51,950 bases of DNA from Campylobacteraceae bacterium. GTDB lineage: Bacteria; Campylobacterota; Campylobacteria; Campylobacterales; Sulfurovaceae. Of this stretch, positions 382 to 51,500 are shown piece after piece. Numbering within the stretch: position 1 is the stretch's first letter; each line of letters begins with the position of its first letter. Where the stretch lies: contig JALVUD010000005.1 of the NCBI GenBank assembly GCA_027035765.1, positions 1 through 51,950 of the forward strand, written 5' to 3'. The notes under the pieces were generated by a model. The model ran no database searches. It was not told where the DNA came from and was given only the letters and a program-made list of their open reading frames with translations. Position numbers and translations under genes: made by a program.

Positions 382-1275
382 ATGAATCAAAACGCCATCA
401 CCTTCTCCGACCTCCTTCTGAAACTGCAGCAATACTGGGCGGCCCAGGGCTGCACCATTGTCCAGCCCTACGACCTGCCCGCCGGGGCGGGAACCTTTCA
501 CCCCGCGACGCTGCTGCGCTCGCTGGACTCCACTCCCTGGGCCACCGCCTACGTGGCTCCCAGCCGCCGTCCTACCGACGGACGCTACGGGGAGAACCCC
601 AACCGTCTGGGGGCTTATTATCAGTTTCAGGTGCTGATCAAACCTTCGCCCGACAACATCCAGGATCTCTACCTCAAGTCCCTCGAGTTCCTGGGGCTCA
701 AGCTCCAGGATCATGACATCCGCTTTGTCGAGGATAACTGGGAGTCGCCGACGCTCGGGGCCTGGGGGCTGGGCTGGGAAGTCTGGCTGGACGGGATGGA
801 AGTGACCCAGTTCACCTACTTCCAGCAGGTGGGAGGTTTGCCCTGTGATCTGGTCGCTGTGGAGATCACCTATGGGACCGAGCGGTTGGCGATGTATCTG
901 CAAGGCGTCGAGTCGGTCTTCGATATCGTCTGGAACCGCAACGGCGATCAGGTGGTCACCTACGCCGACGTCCACAAAGAGAGCGAATATGAGTTCTCCA
1001 AATACCACTTTGAGGTGGCCGACACCGAGATGCTCTTTCGCCACTTCGATGATGCCAGCAATGAGTGTCGCCGTTGCCTGGAGGCGGGGCTGCCCCTGCC
1101 GGCCTACGATCAGTGTATGATCGCCTCCCATACCTTCAATGTCCTGGACGCCCGCAAAGCCATCAGCCAGGCCCAGCGGCAAAACTACATCCTCAAGATC
1201 CGGGATTTGGCCAAAGGGTGCGCCGAACTCTACAAGGCGCAGGAGCCGGAGCGGCTTGAAAGAGTGAAGAGTTAG
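382..1275 (+). CDS. glyQ: Glycyl-tRNA synthetase alpha subunit
   Basis: Catalytic alpha chain of the heterotetrameric class II glycyl-tRNA synthetase, which makes Gly-tRNA in the cytoplasm. The 297-residue product is close to the usual length (about 290-300) and carries the strongly conserved blocks around [17 protein letters not shown] and [11 protein letters not shown] chose ATG 382; an upstream in-frame start would overlap the glutaredoxin gene. The beta subunit glyS lies 17 kb downstream, so the pair is split here. The stop codon lies within the first unit of a heptamer array, so the last residues may have been altered by that repeat. Confidence 0.97.
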
Positions 1276-1384
1276 GAATTAGGAGTTATGGTGCGTTGTC
1301 TTGCAACGCTTTTTATCAATATAGAAGCTTTTCGTGCGAAAAGCATACCCTAAATTCTAGTTACTAGTTGCTAGTTGCTAGTTT
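1269..1384. repeat. Composite element: heptamers, two hairpins, heptamers
   Basis: Three heptamers of the type GAGTTAG (1269-1289, including the glyQ stop codon) are followed by the hairpin GCGTTG-TCTTG-CAACGC (1293-1309) with five T residues. The latter probably serves as the glyQ terminator. A second hairpin, GCTTTTC-GTGC-GAAAAGC (1327-1344), is followed by ATACCC. Four perfectly phased heptamers of the type CTAGTTG then follow (1357-1384), ending just before the ribosome binding site of the next gene. No protein-coding content. Confidence 0.75.
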
Positions 1385-1407
1385 CTTCTTCTCCGAAGGA
1401 TACAGAA

Positions 1408-2908: not shown

Positions 2909-4075
2909 TTGTTCACCTGCTGCTATACGGTTCTGAGCACTGCCGCCTGGCTGGTGGCACTTCCCTTCCTGCTTCTCTTTTCTTTGAGGAAAAAGTACCG
3001 ATCCTCCATCCCCGCCCGTTTTTTTCTCTGGCGTAATCCTCCTCTGAAGCCGGAGGGGATCTGGTTCCACGTCTGCAGCTTCGGGGAGGCGAGGGCCGTC
3101 GCCCCTCTGGTGGAGCGTTTCGATCCCGATATCCGCCGCCTGAGTGCGACGACCCAGACCGGGTTTGAGAGCCTTCAGACCCTTTCGGCCGGGCAGAGCC
3201 GGTACCTTCCATTCGATCCGCTGCTCTGGTTCTGGATGAAGCCCCAGAAAGCCCTGGTGGTGATGGAGGCTGAGCTGTGGTATCTGCTCTTTGCCCTGGC
3301 CAAAAGGCGGGGGGCGGCGACCTTCCTCGTCAATGCCCGCATCAGCGACCGCTCCTGGCCCCGTTACCGGCGTTTTACCTGGTTCTACCGCCTCCTCTTC
3401 GCCCATGTGGACCGGGTCTTTGCCCAGAGCGAAGCGGATCGGAAGCGCCTGGAAGCTCTTGGCGCACGCCATGTCACCGTCGTCGGCAACATCAAGCTGG
3501 GGCAGATTCCCTCTCCCACCCGGAGCTTTGAAAAGCCCGAGGGCTATCTGGTCTGTGCCGCCAGCACACACGAGGGGGAGGAGGGGGAGATCCTCCAGGC
3601 CTTTCGGGAGCTCAAAATGCTGCGTCCCGAGGCGAAGATGGTGCTGGTGCCGCGCCACCCGGAGCGTTTCGAGAAGGTGTGGCGGATGATGCGCTCTTTT
3701 GGCAGACTGCAGGAGTGGCGTATCGCGCGCTTCAGCGAAAGCGGGAATTTAATGGCCGATTTGACCCTGATGGACCGGATGGGTGAGCTGATCAACTGCT
3801 ACGCCGTCAGCGATCTGGTGGTCCTGGGGGGCGCCTTCGAGCCTATCGGCGGCCACAATGCCGCCGAAGCGGCCCAGTTCGAGATCCCCATCATCACCGG
3901 TCCCCACTACTTCAACCAGAAAGACCTCTTCGCCGGGATCGAGGGGATCACGGTGGTGGAGCGGGAAAAGCTTGCCGAAACTCTTCGCTATCCCAAACTC
4001 CTGGAGCGGAGCCGCCTGAAGCTGACAGAGAATCCGATGGAGATCATCGAAAAGGAGATCCGAAATGTTCTATGA
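2909..4075 (+). CDS. waaA: 3-deoxy-D-manno-octulosonic acid (Kdo) transferase
   Basis: Inner-membrane glycosyltransferase that adds Kdo from CMP-Kdo to the lipid A precursor. The 388-residue product starts with a hydrophobic anchor (about residues 5-25). It then shows the family blocks WFHVCSFGEARA, the EAELWYLL segment and the C-terminal GGAFEPIGGHNAAEAA nucleotide-sugar site. The start is TTG at 2909; the ATG at 2901 is out of frame and closes quickly. The 3' end overlaps the next ORF by 11 bases. kdsB, which makes the CMP-Kdo donor, lies elsewhere in the window (30357-31076). Confidence 0.93.
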   Translation: MFTCCYTVLSTAAWLVALPFLLLFSLRKKYRSSIPARFFLWRNPPLKPEGIWFHVCSFGEARAVAPLVERFDPDIRRLSATTQTGFESLQTLSAGQSRYLPFDPLLWFWMKPQKALVVMEAELWYLLFALAKRRGAATFLVNARISDRSWPRYRRFTWFYRLLFAHVDRVFAQSEADRKRLEALGARHVTVVGNIKLGQIPSPTRSFEKPEGYLVCAASTHEGEEGEILQAFRELKMLRPEAKMVLVPRHPERFEKVWRMMRSFGRLQEWRIARFSESGNLMADLTLMDRMGELINCYAVSDLVVLGGAFEPIGGHNAAEAAQFEIPIITGPHYFNQKDLFAGIEGITVVEREKLAETLRYPKLLERSRLKLTENPMEIIEKEIRNVL

Positions 4076-4361
4076 GAAGCAGGGGGAGAGGATCTCCCTG
4101 AAGGTCAAGGCCCAACCTGGTGCCAGCCGCAGTGAGTTCGCCGGTCTCTACGGCGACGAGGCGATCAAGATCCGCATCGCCGCGGCGGCGGTGGAGGGGG
4201 CGGCCAACAAAGAGCTGATCAAGTTCCTCTCCAAAGCCTTCAAGGTCCCCAAAAGCGCGATCCGTTTCAAAAGCGGAGAGACGGCGAAGATCAAGATCCT
4301 GGAATTTCCGTATACTGAGAAATTCTCTGAATTTATTCAGAAACTAGAAACGAGTAACTAG
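4065..4361 (+). CDS. DUF167 (YggU-type) protein
   Basis: 98-residue protein of the DUF167/YggU family, a small alpha-beta fold of unknown function. Recognisable parts are the N-terminal VKAQPGASRSEFAG and the VEGAANKELIKFLSKAF block. The start overlaps the end of waaA by 11 bases, suggesting translational coupling. The last residues (KLETSN) are encoded by a tandem heptamer array (units of the type AACTAGA, 4342-4369), and the stop codon lies inside the third unit. The C-terminus has therefore probably been extended or replaced by repeat DNA. Family recognition is good; function is unknown. Confidence 0.85.
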   Translation: MFYEKQGERISLKVKAQPGASRSEFAGLYGDEAIKIRIAAAAVEGAANKELIKFLSKAFKVPKSAIRFKSGETAKIKILEFPYTEKFSEFIQKLETSN

Positions 4362-4435
4362 TAACTAGAAATTGTGGTGCGTTGCTTTGCAACGCAGATT
4401 CACTTAACACTTAGCACATAGCACTTAACACTAAT
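4342..4435. repeat. Composite element: heptamers, 7-3-7 hairpin, heptamers
   Basis: The clearest copy of the element. Four perfectly phased heptamers of the type AACTAGT/AACGAGT (4342-4369) are followed by ATTGTGGT and the hairpin GCGTTGC-TTT-GCAACGC (4379-4395). Five heptamers of the type CACTTAG (4401-4435) follow. It starts inside the coding end of the DUF167 gene and ends at the ribosome binding site of the next gene. Confidence 0.8.
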
Positions 4436-4448
4436 CCGAAGGATACCA

Positions 4449-5180
4449 ATGGAAAAAGCCTACAAACTTCTGGCCGAGCAGGAGGGGATCTCCAACAAGA
4501 AGGCCAAGGAGCTCATTGATCGGGGACTGGTCTATGTGGGGGATCAGAAGGTCAAAATCGCCCGGGCGGAGATGCCGGAAGAGACGAAGTTCCGCATCGA
4601 AGAACCTGCCGATGTGCGGATCCTCTATCAGGATGATCAGGTAGTGGCCGTGGACAAGCCGGCCTTTATCGACAGTTACGAAATCGAAGAGGCCATCGAG
4701 GGGGCGCAGCTGCTGCACCGCCTGGATCGTGAGACCAGCGGTGTGCTGCTTTTGGCCCGGGACGAAGCCTTCGCCAAAAAGGCGATCGAAGCCTTCCGTC
4801 AGCGTAAAGTCCACAAAGAGTATGTCGCCTGGGTCGAGGGGGTCGTGGTGGAGCCCCTGGAGATCGATCTGCCGATCCATACGATCAAAAAGGGCAAGGC
4901 GATCTCCCGCATCGACAAGAAACGGGGCAAACCGGCTCTGACACGGGTCTGGCCCGACGAAGTGCAGGGGAAAAAGTCGAAAGTGCGTATCGAGATCGAG
5001 ACGGGCCGGACCCATCAGATCCGGGTCCATCTGGCCCATGCCGGCCACCCTATCGTCGGTGACGAGCTCTACGGCAGTCCCACCCGGGCCAAACGCCCGC
5101 TCTTGCATGCGAAGAAAATCACGCTGCTGGGGCGCAGCTACGAGGCGCCGGAGCCGAAAGACATAATGCGCTACAAGTAG
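4449..5180 (+). CDS. RluA-family RNA pseudouridine synthase
   Basis: 243-residue pseudouridine synthase that isomerises uridine in rRNA or tRNA. It has an N-terminal S4-like RNA-binding segment (about residues 1-50). The catalytic motif HRLDRETSG lies at 90-98 with the nucleophilic Asp at 93, and the IEIETGRTHQIRVHLAH block is near 180. It is somewhat shorter than RluC/RluD, because the catalytic core begins early. The specific target site in RNA cannot be assigned. The ATG is preceded by GAAGGATACC, the same ribosome-binding context as the Nif3-like gene. Confidence 0.9.
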   Translation: MEKAYKLLAEQEGISNKKAKELIDRGLVYVGDQKVKIARAEMPEETKFRIEEPADVRILYQDDQVVAVDKPAFIDSYEIEEAIEGAQLLHRLDRETSGVLLLARDEAFAKKAIEAFRQRKVHKEYVAWVEGVVVEPLEIDLPIHTIKKGKAISRIDKKRGKPALTRVWPDEVQGKKSKVRIEIETGRTHQIRVHLAHAGHPIVGDELYGSPTRAKRPLLHAKKITLLGRSYEAPEPKDIMRYK

Positions 5181-5181
5181 C

Positions 5182-5221
5182 GGATGGAAGATGGAAGATG
5201 GAAGATGGAAAATGGAAGATG
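5182..5221. repeat. Tandem heptamer array (AGATGGA type)
   Basis: Five phased heptamers, mostly AGATGGA, begin two bases after the stop codon of the pseudouridine synthase gene and end near 5221. No GCNNNGC hairpin adjoins it, but a weak TTGAG/CTCAA stem follows (about 5228-5244). Period and position match the other heptamer arrays; the unit sequence is different. Confidence 0.7.
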
Positions 5222-39860: not shown

Positions 39861-40020
39861 AATTAACAATAAAAAATTCAGGAAAGCTTTGCTCTGCAAA
39901 GCATTTCGTTATGTTTGAATTTATGATAGCAGGAAAGATTGAATGAAAGAAGATACTGAAAGAATCGAAAAATTTACCAATGACCAATAACTAATGTCCA
40001 ATGACGTCGCCGAAGGCGAC
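39861..40020. repeat. Composite element: heptamers and two hairpins beside the TRAP genes
   Basis: Three AT-rich units of the type AATTCAG (39861-39881) precede the hairpin GCTTTGC-TCT-GCAAAGC (39886-39902). Four heptamers of the type ACCAATG follow (39976-40003). The hairpin GTCGCC-GAA-GGCGAC (40006-40020) then ends four bases before the stop codon of the minus-strand TRAP permease. The 70 bases between the parts show only loose repetition. Confidence 0.6.
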
Positions 40021-40024
40021 ATCG

Positions 40025-42142
40025 TCACGCCATGATACCTTTGACGGTCCAGCGTCCTCCATCCCGGGCGATTTTGGATTTTTGCAGATAGTAGAGCCCG
40101 GCGTAAAGGGCGATGCCGATGGCGTAGGAGATGTAGATACTGCCGTAGCCCAGCCACTGGGCTGTCATGTTGGGGATGAACATGAAAGGGACGATGGCGA
40201 GGAAAACGAGGCGTTCGAGGAGGTTGACTTTGGTCAGGAAGTAGCCTTGGGTTGCCGAGGAGAAGGCGAACATCCCCAGAACGGCGGTGATGAAGATCAT
40301 CCCGATCTCCAGGGGATTGTGGATCCAGACCCAGCCGGCGGGATCGTTGGGGTCCGCCGCGTCGACCGTCTCGATGAGCAGCAGCTTGGTATTGAAGAAG
40401 AACATGAAAGGCAGGATCGCTGTGCGGATATCGTAGGCAAATCCCTGCAGTCCTGTCTTGATGGGGTCGGCCTTGGCGATGCCCGCCGCGGCGTAGGCGG
40501 CCATGCCCACGGGGGGCGTGTCATCCGCCAGGATCCCGAAGTAGAAGACAAACAGATGCGCCGCGATGGCGGGGATCAGGAAACCCAGATCGGTGGCGAG
40601 ACCCATGATGACCGGGGCTGTCAGAGAGGCCATGACGATATAGTTGGCAGTGGTGGGCAGCCCCATCCCCAGGACCAGGGAAACGATGGCGGTAAAGAGC
40701 AGGACCAGGATGATGTTGCCGTTGGCCAGGGTGTCGATCACCTCGGCCAGGATCAGTCCGACCCCGGTGAGGGTGACGGAGCCTACGACGATTCCCGCCA
40801 GACCGGTGGCCACGGCGATGGGGACCATGTTTTTGGCTCCGGAGACCATCCCGTGCCAGATCTCGTAGAAGCCTTTGAGCCAGATCTCACGGGTCAGAGG
40901 TTCCTTGCGGATCATGGCGCCGATGGGGTGCTGGGTGACCATGATGAGCAGCAGGAACATGATGGCATTGAAGGCGGCCATCTGGGGGGACTGGCGTAGG
41001 ATGATCAGGGTATACATCAAAAAGAAAATGGGGATGATGTAGTGGAGTCCGCCTTTGAAGATATGCCAGGCCCTGGGCAGACGTCTCGGGTCCTCCCCCT
41101 TGATCCCCAGCTTTTTCGCCTCAAGGTGGACGATGTAGAAGAGGGCGAAGTAGCTGACGAAAGCCGGGATCGCCGCGGTGATGATGACGTCGGTATAGCT
41201 GAGTCCCAGGAACTCGGCGATGATGAAGGCGGCGGCTCCCATAATCGGCGGCATCAGCTGGCCGTTGGTGGAAGCGGCCACCTCGACGGAGGCGGCTTTG
41301 TGCGGCGGAAAGCCGAGGCGCTTCATCAGGGGGATGGTGAAGGTCCCTGTGGTGACGGTGTTGGCGATGGAGGAGCCGGAGATGATCCCCATCATCCCCG
41401 AGGCGGCGACGGAGGCTTTGGCGGGGCCGCCGTCATATTTGCCGAGCAGCGCGTAGGCGAGGTTGATGAAGTAGGCCCCCGCTCCGGCCCGCTCCAGCAG
41501 TGCGCCGAAGAGGACGAAGAGGAAAACGTAGCTTGCCGAGACTCCCAGGGGGACCCCGAAGATCCCTTCGGTGGTGAGGTACATCTGGCCGATGATCTTG
41601 TTGAGGCTGGCCCCTTTGTGGGCGATGAGGTCGGGCATATACTGGCCCCAGTGATCGTAGGCCAGGAAGATAAGCGCGATGATCCCCAGGGCCAGGCCCA
41701 GGACCCGCCGGGAGCCCTCGATCAGCAGGATGATGGTGATGACCCCCATGACGATATCGAGCTGGTTCCAGGCACCGCTTCGGGCGTTGAGCGCGTCATA
41801 GTTCCAGAAGATATAGAGCGCGCCCACCGCGGCAACGGCGGCGATGATGAAATCCCACCAGGGAATCGTAAACATCTCGCTTCTGCGTTTGAACATAGGA
41901 TACATCAGATAGGCCAGCACCAGGGCAAAGGCCAGGTGGGTTGCCCGGACAAAGACACTGTTGACCGGCACGATGACTACATAGATCTGATACATGGACC
42001 AGAGAAAGGCGATGATGGAGACGGTCCAGTCTTCCCAGCCCCGGGTTTTGAAGACCCGCTGCCCTTCGAGCTTCTCTATCAGCTCCTCATCTTCGTGGAG
42101 CTTGTCCTCTTCCGCTTCGATCGGTTTGGGTTCCTGTGCCAT
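40025..42142 (-). CDS. TRAP transporter permease, 4TM/12TM (DctQM) fusion
   Basis: 705-residue inner-membrane protein joining the small DctQ-like (about residues 40-175) and large DctM-like (about 180-690) parts of a TAXI-type TRAP transporter. It imports an organic anion with Na+ or H+. There are many hydrophobic helices. Conserved stretches include GMMGIISGSSIANTVTTGTFTIPLMKR and VLGMGLPTTANYIVMA, and an acidic cytoplasmic N-terminus (residues 5-30). The cognate binding protein is encoded just upstream on the same strand, 83 bases away. The substrate cannot be predicted from sequence. Confidence 0.93.
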   Translation of the reverse strand: MAQEPKPIEAEEDKLHEDEELIEKLEGQRVFKTRGWEDWTVSIIAFLWSMYQIYVVIVPVNSVFVRATHLAFALVLAYLMYPMFKRRSEMFTIPWWDFIIAAVAAVGALYIFWNYDALNARSGAWNQLDIVMGVITIILLIEGSRRVLGLALGIIALIFLAYDHWGQYMPDLIAHKGASLNKIIGQMYLTTEGIFGVPLGVSASYVFLFVLFGALLERAGAGAYFINLAYALLGKYDGGPAKASVAASGMMGIISGSSIANTVTTGTFTIPLMKRLGFPPHKAASVEVAASTNGQLMPPIMGAAAFIIAEFLGLSYTDVIITAAIPAFVSYFALFYIVHLEAKKLGIKGEDPRRLPRAWHIFKGGLHYIIPIFFLMYTLIILRQSPQMAAFNAIMFLLLIMVTQHPIGAMIRKEPLTREIWLKGFYEIWHGMVSGAKNMVPIAVATGLAGIVVGSVTLTGVGLILAEVIDTLANGNIILVLLFTAIVSLVLGMGLPTTANYIVMASLTAPVIMGLATDLGFLIPAIAAHLFVFYFGILADDTPPVGMAAYAAAGIAKADPIKTGLQGFAYDIRTAILPFMFFFNTKLLLIETVDAADPNDPAGWVWIHNPLEIGMIFITAVLGMFAFSSATQGYFLTKVNLLERLVFLAIVPFMFIPNMTAQWLGYGSIYISYAIGIALYAGLYYLQKSKIARDGGRWTVKGIMA

Positions 42143-46461: not shown

Positions 46462-46592
46462 AACTAGTAACTAGTAACGAGTAACGAGTAACTAGGAATT
46501 TTGGTATGCGTCGCTGTGCGACGCTTTCTTTGTTCAATCAAAAATCCATCATTCAAAATCCAACATCCCCAAAACGCCCTCGGCGTTTTGGG
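46462..46592. repeat. Composite element: heptamers, 7-3-7 hairpin, degenerate array, 11-bp palindrome
   Basis: Five phased heptamers of the type AACTAGT/AACGAGT (46462-46496) are followed by GGTAT and the hairpin GCGTCGC-TGT-GCGACGC (46508-46524). A degenerate AATCCAT-like run follows (about 46534-46566). It ends in a perfect 11-bp stem with a 3-nt loop, arms CCCAAAACGCC (46568-46578) and GGCGTTTTGGG (46582-46592). It lies between divergent genes and reaches to within nine bases of the -10 box of the TauE/SafE gene. Confidence 0.7.
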
Positions 46593-46632: not shown

Positions 46633-47379
46633 ATGGAAATTCTCCTGGCATTGGTGGGTGTGGGCATCGGAGCGCTCTCGGGCTTTTTCGGGATCGGGGG
46701 CGGGACGGTGCTGGTGCCGGTACTGCTGCTCATGGGCTTCGGTTTCAAGCACGCCGTGGGGATCTCCATCATGCAGATGGTCTTCAGCTCCGTTTACGGC
46801 TCCTACCTCAATCTCCGCAAAGGCTCCCTCCAGTTGGGAGAGGGGCTCTTCGTCGGATTTGGGGGATTTGCCGGAGGTTATCTCAGCGGCTATCTCACCC
46901 CCTATGTTCCCGAGAGGGTATTGCAGTTCGTATTTATCGGATTTGTCCTCTTCGCGCTGATCCGGATGATGATTTCCCAGGCTCATGAGGACGAGAGCGC
47001 GAGCCGGACACTGCCCAAGTGGCTCCTCTTTCTCATCGGTACCGGTATCGGAGTCATCGCCATCAGCATCGGTGTCGGCGGGGCGATCATTCTGATCCCG
47101 CTCCTATCGGGTCTGCTCCACTATCCGGTCAAAAAAGCCGTCAGCGCCGGACTCTTTTTCGTTGTCTTCTCCTCCGTAGCGGGCCTGGCAGGGCGGCTGA
47201 TGCACGGCCAGATTGACCTGGCCAGCGGCGCCATCGTCGGAGCCGGTTCTTTGGTGGGGGTTTATCTGGGGATCTGGCTCAAAGAGCATGTGGACAACCG
47301 CCGCCACAAAAGTTTCATTGTGGTGATGTATTCGATTATCCTGGCGATTATGGTATATAAGATGTTTTTTGCACAGTGA
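46633..47379 (+). CDS. TauE/SafE-family membrane permease
   Basis: 248-residue permease with two repeats of about four helices each. The glycine-rich motifs are GALSGFFGIGGGTVLVPVLLLMGF (N-terminal) and GVIAISIGVGGAIILIPLLSGLLH (C-terminal), diagnostic of the TauE/SafE (DUF81) family. Members export sulfite, sulfoacetate or related anions; the substrate here is unknown, though sulfite export would fit a sulfur oxidiser. GAGGATCGGT precedes the ATG. A heptamer array begins at the stop codon. Confidence 0.9.
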   Translation: MEILLALVGVGIGALSGFFGIGGGTVLVPVLLLMGFGFKHAVGISIMQMVFSSVYGSYLNLRKGSLQLGEGLFVGFGGFAGGYLSGYLTPYVPERVLQFVFIGFVLFALIRMMISQAHEDESASRTLPKWLLFLIGTGIGVIAISIGVGGAIILIPLLSGLLHYPVKKAVSAGLFFVVFSSVAGLAGRLMHGQIDLASGAIVGAGSLVGVYLGIWLKEHVDNRRHKSFIVVMYSIILAIMVYKMFFAQ

Positions 47380-47443
47380 GTGTTAAGTGTTATGTGCTAA
47401 GTGCTACGTCTTAAAGGCATAGCGTGGGATTGTGCCATCCTAC
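47380..47443. repeat. Heptamer array plus stem-loop
   Basis: Five phased heptamers of the type GTGTTAA/GTGCTAA (47380-47414) begin immediately after the TauE/SafE stop codon. A stem CGTGGGAT/ATCCTACG (47422-47443, one G-U pair) follows. It ends before the small ORF at 47461. Confidence 0.65.
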
Positions 47444-51111: not shown

Positions 51112-51500
51112 GGCGCCGTCGGCGCCGGTCGCAAGTTGCAAGAGATGTGTTACGTGCTACGTGCTACGTGCTAAGTAAATCTGCATCGCAGGGCGATGCG
51201 TTCTCTCGTTCCCACGGTCTCCGTGGGAATGCATACTTCCGGCCGGATTTGTCAACATCACGTTCCCATCGAGGACGATGGGAACGAGCTAAAAAAATTA
51301 GTCGATAGATGCAGACAATGTTGCCTCCGGCGACAGCATTGGGCATTGTGGGCAGAGCTTCAGCCCAGCATTTTGCGGGACTGAAGTCCCACCTCCAAAA
51401 TATCGCGTTGCGGAGCAACGCCCCTAAACCATTCATCATTCACCCTTCACCCATTCGTATTACTCGTTACTAGTTCTCAAATTCAGTTTCTCACTCCTCA
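51112..51500. repeat. Repeat cluster: heptamers, 7-3-7 hairpins and REP-like palindromes
   Basis: In order: GGCGCC-GTC-GGCGCC (51112-51126); heptamers of the type GTGCTAC (51147-51181); hairpin GCATCGC-AGG-GCGATGC (51183-51199); TTCCCACGG-TCT-CCGTGGGAA (51209-51229); and an 11-bp stem CGTTCCCATCG/CGATGGGAACG (51261-51286). A degenerate bipartite palindrome ending GGGACT-GA-AGTCCC (51345-51398) and the hairpin GCGTTGC-GGA-GCAACGC (51405-51421) follow. About ten phased, degenerate heptamers of the type ATTCACC (51431-51500) run into the stop codon of the TonB-like gene. No gene is present in this 390-base stretch. Confidence 0.75.

Follow-up and report, generated by a model that had tools for sequence, protein, structure and literature searches.

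What process could produce tandem arrays that hold to a fixed period of 7 nt while the repeated unit seems to differ at each site? The question arises at ten sites in the window (the whole stretch of 51,950 nucleotides analysed here, which is all of contig C5 in a genome of 2.03 Mb and 47 contigs), which the original prediction described as intergenic throughout and attributed to a generating process rather than to the copying of one element. Period-7 arrays are present at all ten sites, at about the coordinates first given, and an eleventh lies at 71-101 (ATTATTC, reverse strand), followed on the same strand by a dispersed hairpin that we call h1 (GCGTTGCNNNGCAACGC, 46-64) at its inner end.

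The remaining arrays can be followed from left to right. An array of GTGAAGA/GTTAGGA units (1260-1288, forward strand) overlaps the stop codon of the GlyQ gene, which ends at 1275, its G-rich strand running outward from that gene, and h1 stands at its inner end (1291-1309, forward); the CTAGTTG array at 1357-1383, which is the AACTAGT family read on the reverse strand, lies upstream of a NIF3-like gene (1408-2133). The AACTAGT array at 4339-4368 (forward) covers the stop codon of a DUF167 gene (4065-4361), and is separated by h1 (4377-4395, forward) from a CACTTAG array (4401-4432, GTGCTAA on the reverse strand) just upstream of an RNA pseudouridine synthase gene (4449-5180), which is itself followed, 2 nt past its stop codon, by a GATGGAA array (5183-5221, forward). 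An imperfect ACCAATG array on the reverse strand (39976-40003) directs its G-rich strand outward from a reverse-strand gene at 40025-42142. A further AACTAGT array (46462-46495, forward) has an h1 variant, GCGTCGCTGTGCGACGC, at its inner end (46506-46524, forward), and an AGTGTTA/GTGCTAA array (47379-47414, forward) begins at the stop codon of the TauE gene (46633-47379). Near the right end are a GTGCTAC array (51147-51173, forward), a reverse-strand h1 (51403-51423) and a reverse-strand array of CATTCACC, or GGTGAAT on that strand (51428-51456), with remains of ACTAGTT and CTCCTCA arrays from there to about 51500. The ten sites are thus not strictly intergenic as described, since the arrays at 4339-4368 and 47379-47414, for instance, reach into stop codons.

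We sampled the rest of the genome in stretches of up to 20 kb (785 kb, or 837 kb and 41% of the genome with the window included). The sampled intergenic DNA contains 161 period-7 arrays, compared with an average of 0.45 and at most 2 over 20 shuffles, and each of the periods 4-6 and 8-11 is represented by 0-15 arrays in the same DNA; at a score of at least 13, period 7 accounts for 136 of about 185 arrays in the genome sample, and none arose in a second-order Markov sequence matched in size to the first 452 kb sampled. The signal is therefore found in the sampled genome beyond the window and is far above that of shuffled intergenic DNA, the comparison on which the original prediction had staked itself. 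The second commonest intergenic period is 8, and period-8 arrays (GGTGAGAG, AAGGTGGG) adjoin a different hairpin, GATCGCGCTTCGCGCTGG (loci L022, L066 and L056).

The 156 arrays typed in the 837 kb sample fall into 34 unit types, the commonest being GTGAGGA (21 arrays), AACTAGT (17), GATGGAA (14), AATGAGG (12) and GTGAATG (12). The impression of a different unit at each site is accordingly an artefact of a window too small to reveal units that recur genome-wide, and recurrence is not confined, as had been proposed, to the AACTAGT and GTGCTAA types. Many units contain only GG or a single G (AACTAGT, GTCGTTT, GTGCTAC), and TTGGTCA arrays are also present. Array length is narrowly distributed, with a mean of 30.75 nt (about 4.4 units) and four full units in 101 of 144 arrays of the window genome; median lengths in three members of the genus are 30, 31 and 30 nt, and those in a Chitinophagaceae and in Calothrix parasitica are 31 and 34 nt. 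A single ACTCAGA array of 333 nt in a Pirellulaceae (locus L171) is far above the usual 31 nt.

The arrays have a consistent orientation relative to coding sequence. Taking the G-strand of an array to be the strand richer in G, we found that it leaves the nearest gene border in 117 of 130 arrays of the window genome (outward:other, 60:8 at 3' borders and 57:5 at 5' borders by nearest-border count), and that it does so in convergent, divergent and tandem regions alike. When genes were called with one simple dicodon model across genomes, the outward:other counts at 3' borders were 53:6 in the window genome, 33:1 in its relative G011, 71:10 in the Chitinophagaceae and 44:9 in Calothrix parasitica, and those at 5' borders were, in the same order, 55:1, 26:0, 40:3 and 40:1. 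Facing array pairs can be counted without gene calls, and the ratio of convergent to divergent pairs is 29:1 in the window genome, 20:0 and 11:0 in the genus, and together 58:0 in Calothrix (18:0, from stretches picked blind) and the Chitinophagaceae (40:0, from stretches picked around known arrays, four convergent pairs having been seen before counting). Among loci of other phyla, fetched via one unit family, it is 41:3 (Cyanobacteria 20:1, Clostridia 7:0, Bacteroidota 6:1, others 8:1). Array-free intergenic regions have a GC skew of about 0.01 in either half, so the outward polarity is not background skew, and a general strand skew of intergenic DNA was rejected as its source. Units with neither Shine-Dalgarno-like nor stop sequences (GTCGGCA, GTCGTTT, TTGGTCA) also follow the outward rule.

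At 3' borders the arrays begin at the stop codon (medians of +1, +1, 0 and +2 nt in four genomes): 142 G-rich arrays are found there, 73 containing the stop codon and 69 starting no more than 10 nt after it, as against 8 C-rich arrays in the same positions. At 5' borders they lie 11-38 nt (medians) from the start codon, which is just upstream of the ribosome site. An array is present within 40 nt at 278 of the 1945 CDS borders that face at least 50 nt, and at none of 51 tRNA or tmRNA borders (Fisher p = 7e-4); the lack of arrays at RNA genes is a pointer to mRNA or translation. Array density is highest in tandem and lowest in divergent regions of the window genome, and highest in convergent regions of the Chitinophagaceae. 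A search of Rfam returned no known RNA family at the arrays.

Two other features were observed alongside the arrays. Just ahead of many start codons is a mini-hairpin in which a CCTCC-like run pairs with the ribosome site downstream of it (for example, TTTCCTCCAAAGGAGGAAA; loci L022, L058 and L069, and window positions 1385-1407 and 4433-4448), the stem varying in sequence among close relatives with pairing kept. Between two facing arrays there recurs a promoter-like or palindromic core, TTGACA-N17-TTAAACT on one strand (for example, TTTAAACTATCTGACAATATTTATCAAGTC; loci L043, L031, L039, L054 and L068).

Comparison with close relatives separates the place of an array from its letters. Orthologous borders in the window genome (G000) and G006, where flanking proteins are mostly 93-100% identical, have an array in both genomes in 18 cases, in one only in 9 and in neither in 167; the corresponding counts for G011 are 14, 12 and 172. 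In 17 of the 32 shared slots the unit differs at two or more of its seven positions. The slot after the pseudouridine synthase gene (window position 5183) holds GATGGAA, GATTTTG, GAGAATG or GATTGAA among the relatives and is empty in G010 and G012, and the promoter-like core downstream of it is kept in several relatives. At 4342, G006 is shorter than the window genome by exactly one 7-nt unit, and G004 and G011 have other units in this slot (4339-4368). Between close relatives, whole intergenic regions are sometimes replaced, and two intergenic regions of G006 are near copies of each other. Within the window genome, an identical hairpin, linker and C-rich array occupy two adjoining intergenic regions on contig C39 (70989-71794; loci L025-L027), pointing to recent copying between them. 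The array-poor relative G004 (loci L318-L321) has, in place of positions 92731-92844 of G000 contig C19, a compact junction, CCAAATAGTGAGGAGTGACTGTG, in which stop codon and ribosome site overlap and which already holds one and a half GTGAGGA units; it is possible that this is a seed, or else a deletion scar.

Period 7 dominates in array-rich relatives as it does in the window genome. A four-unit degenerate pattern (GARTKAG) has matches, judged by record title, in at least a dozen phyla; among the matches listed are Cyanobacteria, Bacteroidota, Clostridia, Chloroflexota, Planctomycetota, Verrucomicrobiota, Spirochaetota, Acidobacteriota, Patescibacteria and Gammaproteobacteria. Within the phylum of the window genome, a three-unit pattern was found in 13 of 397 sampled genomes, mostly from two genera of one family, and the trait is therefore patchy.

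What has to be explained is thus the observed combination of period, fixed length, polarity, abutment on coding sequence, avoidance of RNA genes, persistence of slots and replacement of units, which requires both a sequence-indifferent source of period-7 arrays and a rule that fixes their strand, place and length. We tentatively put first an account in which the arrays are modules of the coding-sequence border, copied among one another and held to their polarity and length by a constraint at the level of mRNA or translation. At a protein-gene end there would be a slot of about 31 nt, filled with a heptamer repeat that is G-rich on the strand leaving the gene; the mRNA would then have a run rich in C immediately 5' of the ribosome site and one rich in G directly after the stop codon. 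Slippage or repair within a short array may give rise to the units and keep them uniform; new units would reach a slot mostly by recombination copying from other arrays, in the same genome or in related strains; and polarity and length would be kept if untranslated runs are tolerated, or of use in translation or the turnover of mRNA, only when they are C-rich on the 5' side and G-rich on the 3' side. In this genus, many of the modules are joined at their inner end to the dispersed hairpin TTYGGTDT-GCGTTGCNNNGCAACGC. That copying occurs follows from arrays at different loci that are identical over 26-34 nt (those of 29-34 nt at two to three loci) and from internal variants that several array families share across loci, such as the ACGAG variant as second unit of AACTAGT arrays. 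Several observations count against the border-module account: selection on translation alone predicts neither a period of 7 nor a uniform unit; the G-rich 3' preference holds between convergent genes too (we know of no obvious cost of a C-rich run there); slots rewritten with their flanks alike need donor arrays without obvious homology; units that lack Shine-Dalgarno-like or stop sequences obey the rule; and only 47-48% of 3' arrays in the genus provide stops in all frames.

The main rival, which we regard as a real if doubtful possibility, is a dedicated or moonlighting DNA-writing or repair process that would use a 7-nt template to synthesise about 31 nt, extending the G-rich strand 5' to 3' from whichever base next to a coding sequence is the first to be free of constraint. 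Such a process would be indifferent to the unit, and orthologous slots would therefore receive new units; this agrees with slots of close relatives in which position, period and length are the same and the unit is new, with a polarity independent of the unit in at least three phyla, and with array lengths that are not geometric. The shared internal variants, on the other hand, show that whole arrays are copied, and the avoidance of tRNA borders is not predicted. A reverse transcriptase had been suggested as the generator, but a search of the 99.9% complete genome for RVT_1 gave no match (the search covered RVT_1 only, so that divergent families may remain), and we know of no enzyme that correlates with heptamer arrays. 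The prediction of a generating process instead of copying thus holds in part: period and length are conserved where sequence is not, even at orthologous positions, which calls for more than the copying of one element, and copying is seen as well. It may be, and we hold this with considerable reserve, that a widespread but so far unrecognised bacterial process writes and rewrites heptamer arrays about 31 nt long where protein genes end or begin, with fixed polarity and any unit, so that place, period and length would be inherited and sequence would not.

Array and hairpin together might alternatively constitute a small mobile element of the REP or SDR kind, inserting beside genes with a transposase acting in trans, which we consider unlikely. 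The hairpin h1 is present in about 50 copies in the genome, at each of the 30 sampled sites an array stops about 9 nt short of it, and its distribution within the genus is one of presence and absence: its pattern has up to about 60 matches in several genus-mates and none in others, it is found in some other genera of the family, and heptamer arrays were absent from the DNA sampled in genus-mates without h1 (160 kb of G007, 70 kb of G002 and smaller amounts of G003 and G012). Against a mobile element, the same hairpin is preceded by many different units, and most arrays in other phyla occur without such a hairpin, so h1 is a local companion and not the cause. Y1 transposases, moreover, are found in array-free genomes and went undetected in array-rich ones. 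The foot of h1 carries neither a GTAG nor a CGTC tag, its conserved flank being TTYGGTDT. REPs have no heptamer array. As a short dispersed hairpin between genes, h1 resembles the REP palindromes tagged GTAG/CGTC (PMC3733652) and REPINs (PMC3116915), but it differs from REPs in lacking the tag and in not tracking a Y1 transposase. A single Y1 (RAYT-like) transposase gene, at about 1065-1990 of locus L071, is flanked by AAGGGGTCAGGTGATG repeats that are unlike the arrays; with one gene, a different repeat of its own and a presence across the genus that does not follow the arrays, it was rejected as the mover. Further dispersed hairpins occur between arrays genome-wide (GTAGCGTGGGATTGCNATCCCACG, GGAGGCGGGACTTCAGTCCCGC, GGGCTGAAGCCC, CGAAAGCTACGCTTTCG; for example, loci L010, L017 and L029).

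Ordinary replication slippage with a preferred 7-nt step (Mrazek and colleagues, as quoted in PMC4679880 and PMC4692102) seems to us more unlikely still. It accords with the gain or loss of exactly one unit between G000 and G006 at 4342-4369, and with period 7 being the commonest long repeat in many bacteria (PMC4679880, PMC4692102). Slippage alone would, however, be expected to give a falling length distribution and not a sharp peak at four units; it predicts neither a polarity relative to coding sequence nor abutment on the stop codon; units change at persistent slots between close relatives; and there are sampled genus-mates without arrays. Simple slippage, which the original prediction had named as a possible generator, thus leaves fixed length, polarity and placement unexplained.

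It is very improbable that the arrays are stop fences, with a stop codon every 7 nt that covers all three frames after three units: 80-90% of 3' arrays in Calothrix and the Chitinophagaceae do have all-frame stops on the G-rich strand and 73 arrays contain the gene's own stop codon, but the figure of 47-48% in the genus and the similar strength of the property at 5' borders, at which the G-rich strand is antisense, make this insufficient as a general reason. A telomere-like head-to-head joining of tails, suggested by the convergent polarity, was rejected because the arms are separated by a unique core of intergenic DNA and are each located at the border of a gene; G-quadruplex formation, for which four units would be typical, was rejected on the several units without GG and the lack of a GGG or GGGG tract in every unit; and transposon-type inverted repeats around genes were rejected on unit matches that, in the Chitinophagaceae, number 34 of 39 across intergenic regions and 8 of 20 across genes (31% at random) and are hardly above random in Calothrix or the window genome.

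To our knowledge, reports of heptamer repeats go back to the 1990s, each concerned with particular genomes and offering an explanation specific to its unit. The arrays resemble the STRR repeats of Calothrix, Nostoc and Anabaena in being dispersed intergenic heptamers of several unit types in one genome. The TTGGTCA unit, of which there are arrays in the window genome, may correspond to STRR2. As far as we know, STRRs have been described as dispersed repeats without a rule of placement or polarity; the arrays of Calothrix parasitica follow the same polarity and stop-codon rule as those of the window genome, which bears out the cyanobacterial parallel first drawn from the window. Two further reported systems have a single unit each. 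The GGGAATC heptamers of Xanthomonas are intergenic, have four as their commonest number of units, form convergent pairs (70 and 75 cases), lie 28 nt from the ORF on its 5' side as opposed to 160 nt, and have been read as G-quadruplexes (Rehm et al. 2015, PMC4692102). Our arrays are likewise G-rich, intergenic, mostly of four units and convergent in pairs, but dozens of units, several without GG, here obey one rule, array starts fall on the stop codon itself, and the rule extends to further phyla. The TAACTGA repeats of Beggiatoaceae, Cyanobacteria and Bacteroidetes form short arrays, mostly beside start codons, with 7-nt indels between close strains and an odd phylogenetic spread (MacGregor 2015, PMC4679880). 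Heptamer unit, short arrays, 7-nt indels between strains and patchy spread are common to both, whereas TAACTGA is one unit, studied mainly at start codons, and neither an orientation rule at both gene ends nor unit replacement is described there. A unit-independent border rule across phyla appears to be new, as judged from the open-access literature, in which an earlier notice outside Xanthomonas is conceivable; no known system explains a position kept at gene ends with its unit swapped.

A single unit-blind rule, by which arrays of four units lie only at protein genes, begin at the stop codon and have their G-rich strand facing outward, applies in Campylobacterota, Cyanobacteria and Bacteroidota and is matched by the report on Xanthomonas, which points to one common cause. 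That cause can be tested: there are sister genomes with and without arrays, and the prediction is independent of sequence. Rapidly diverging intergenic DNA is to be read anew, because position and periodicity can be constrained where the letters are not.
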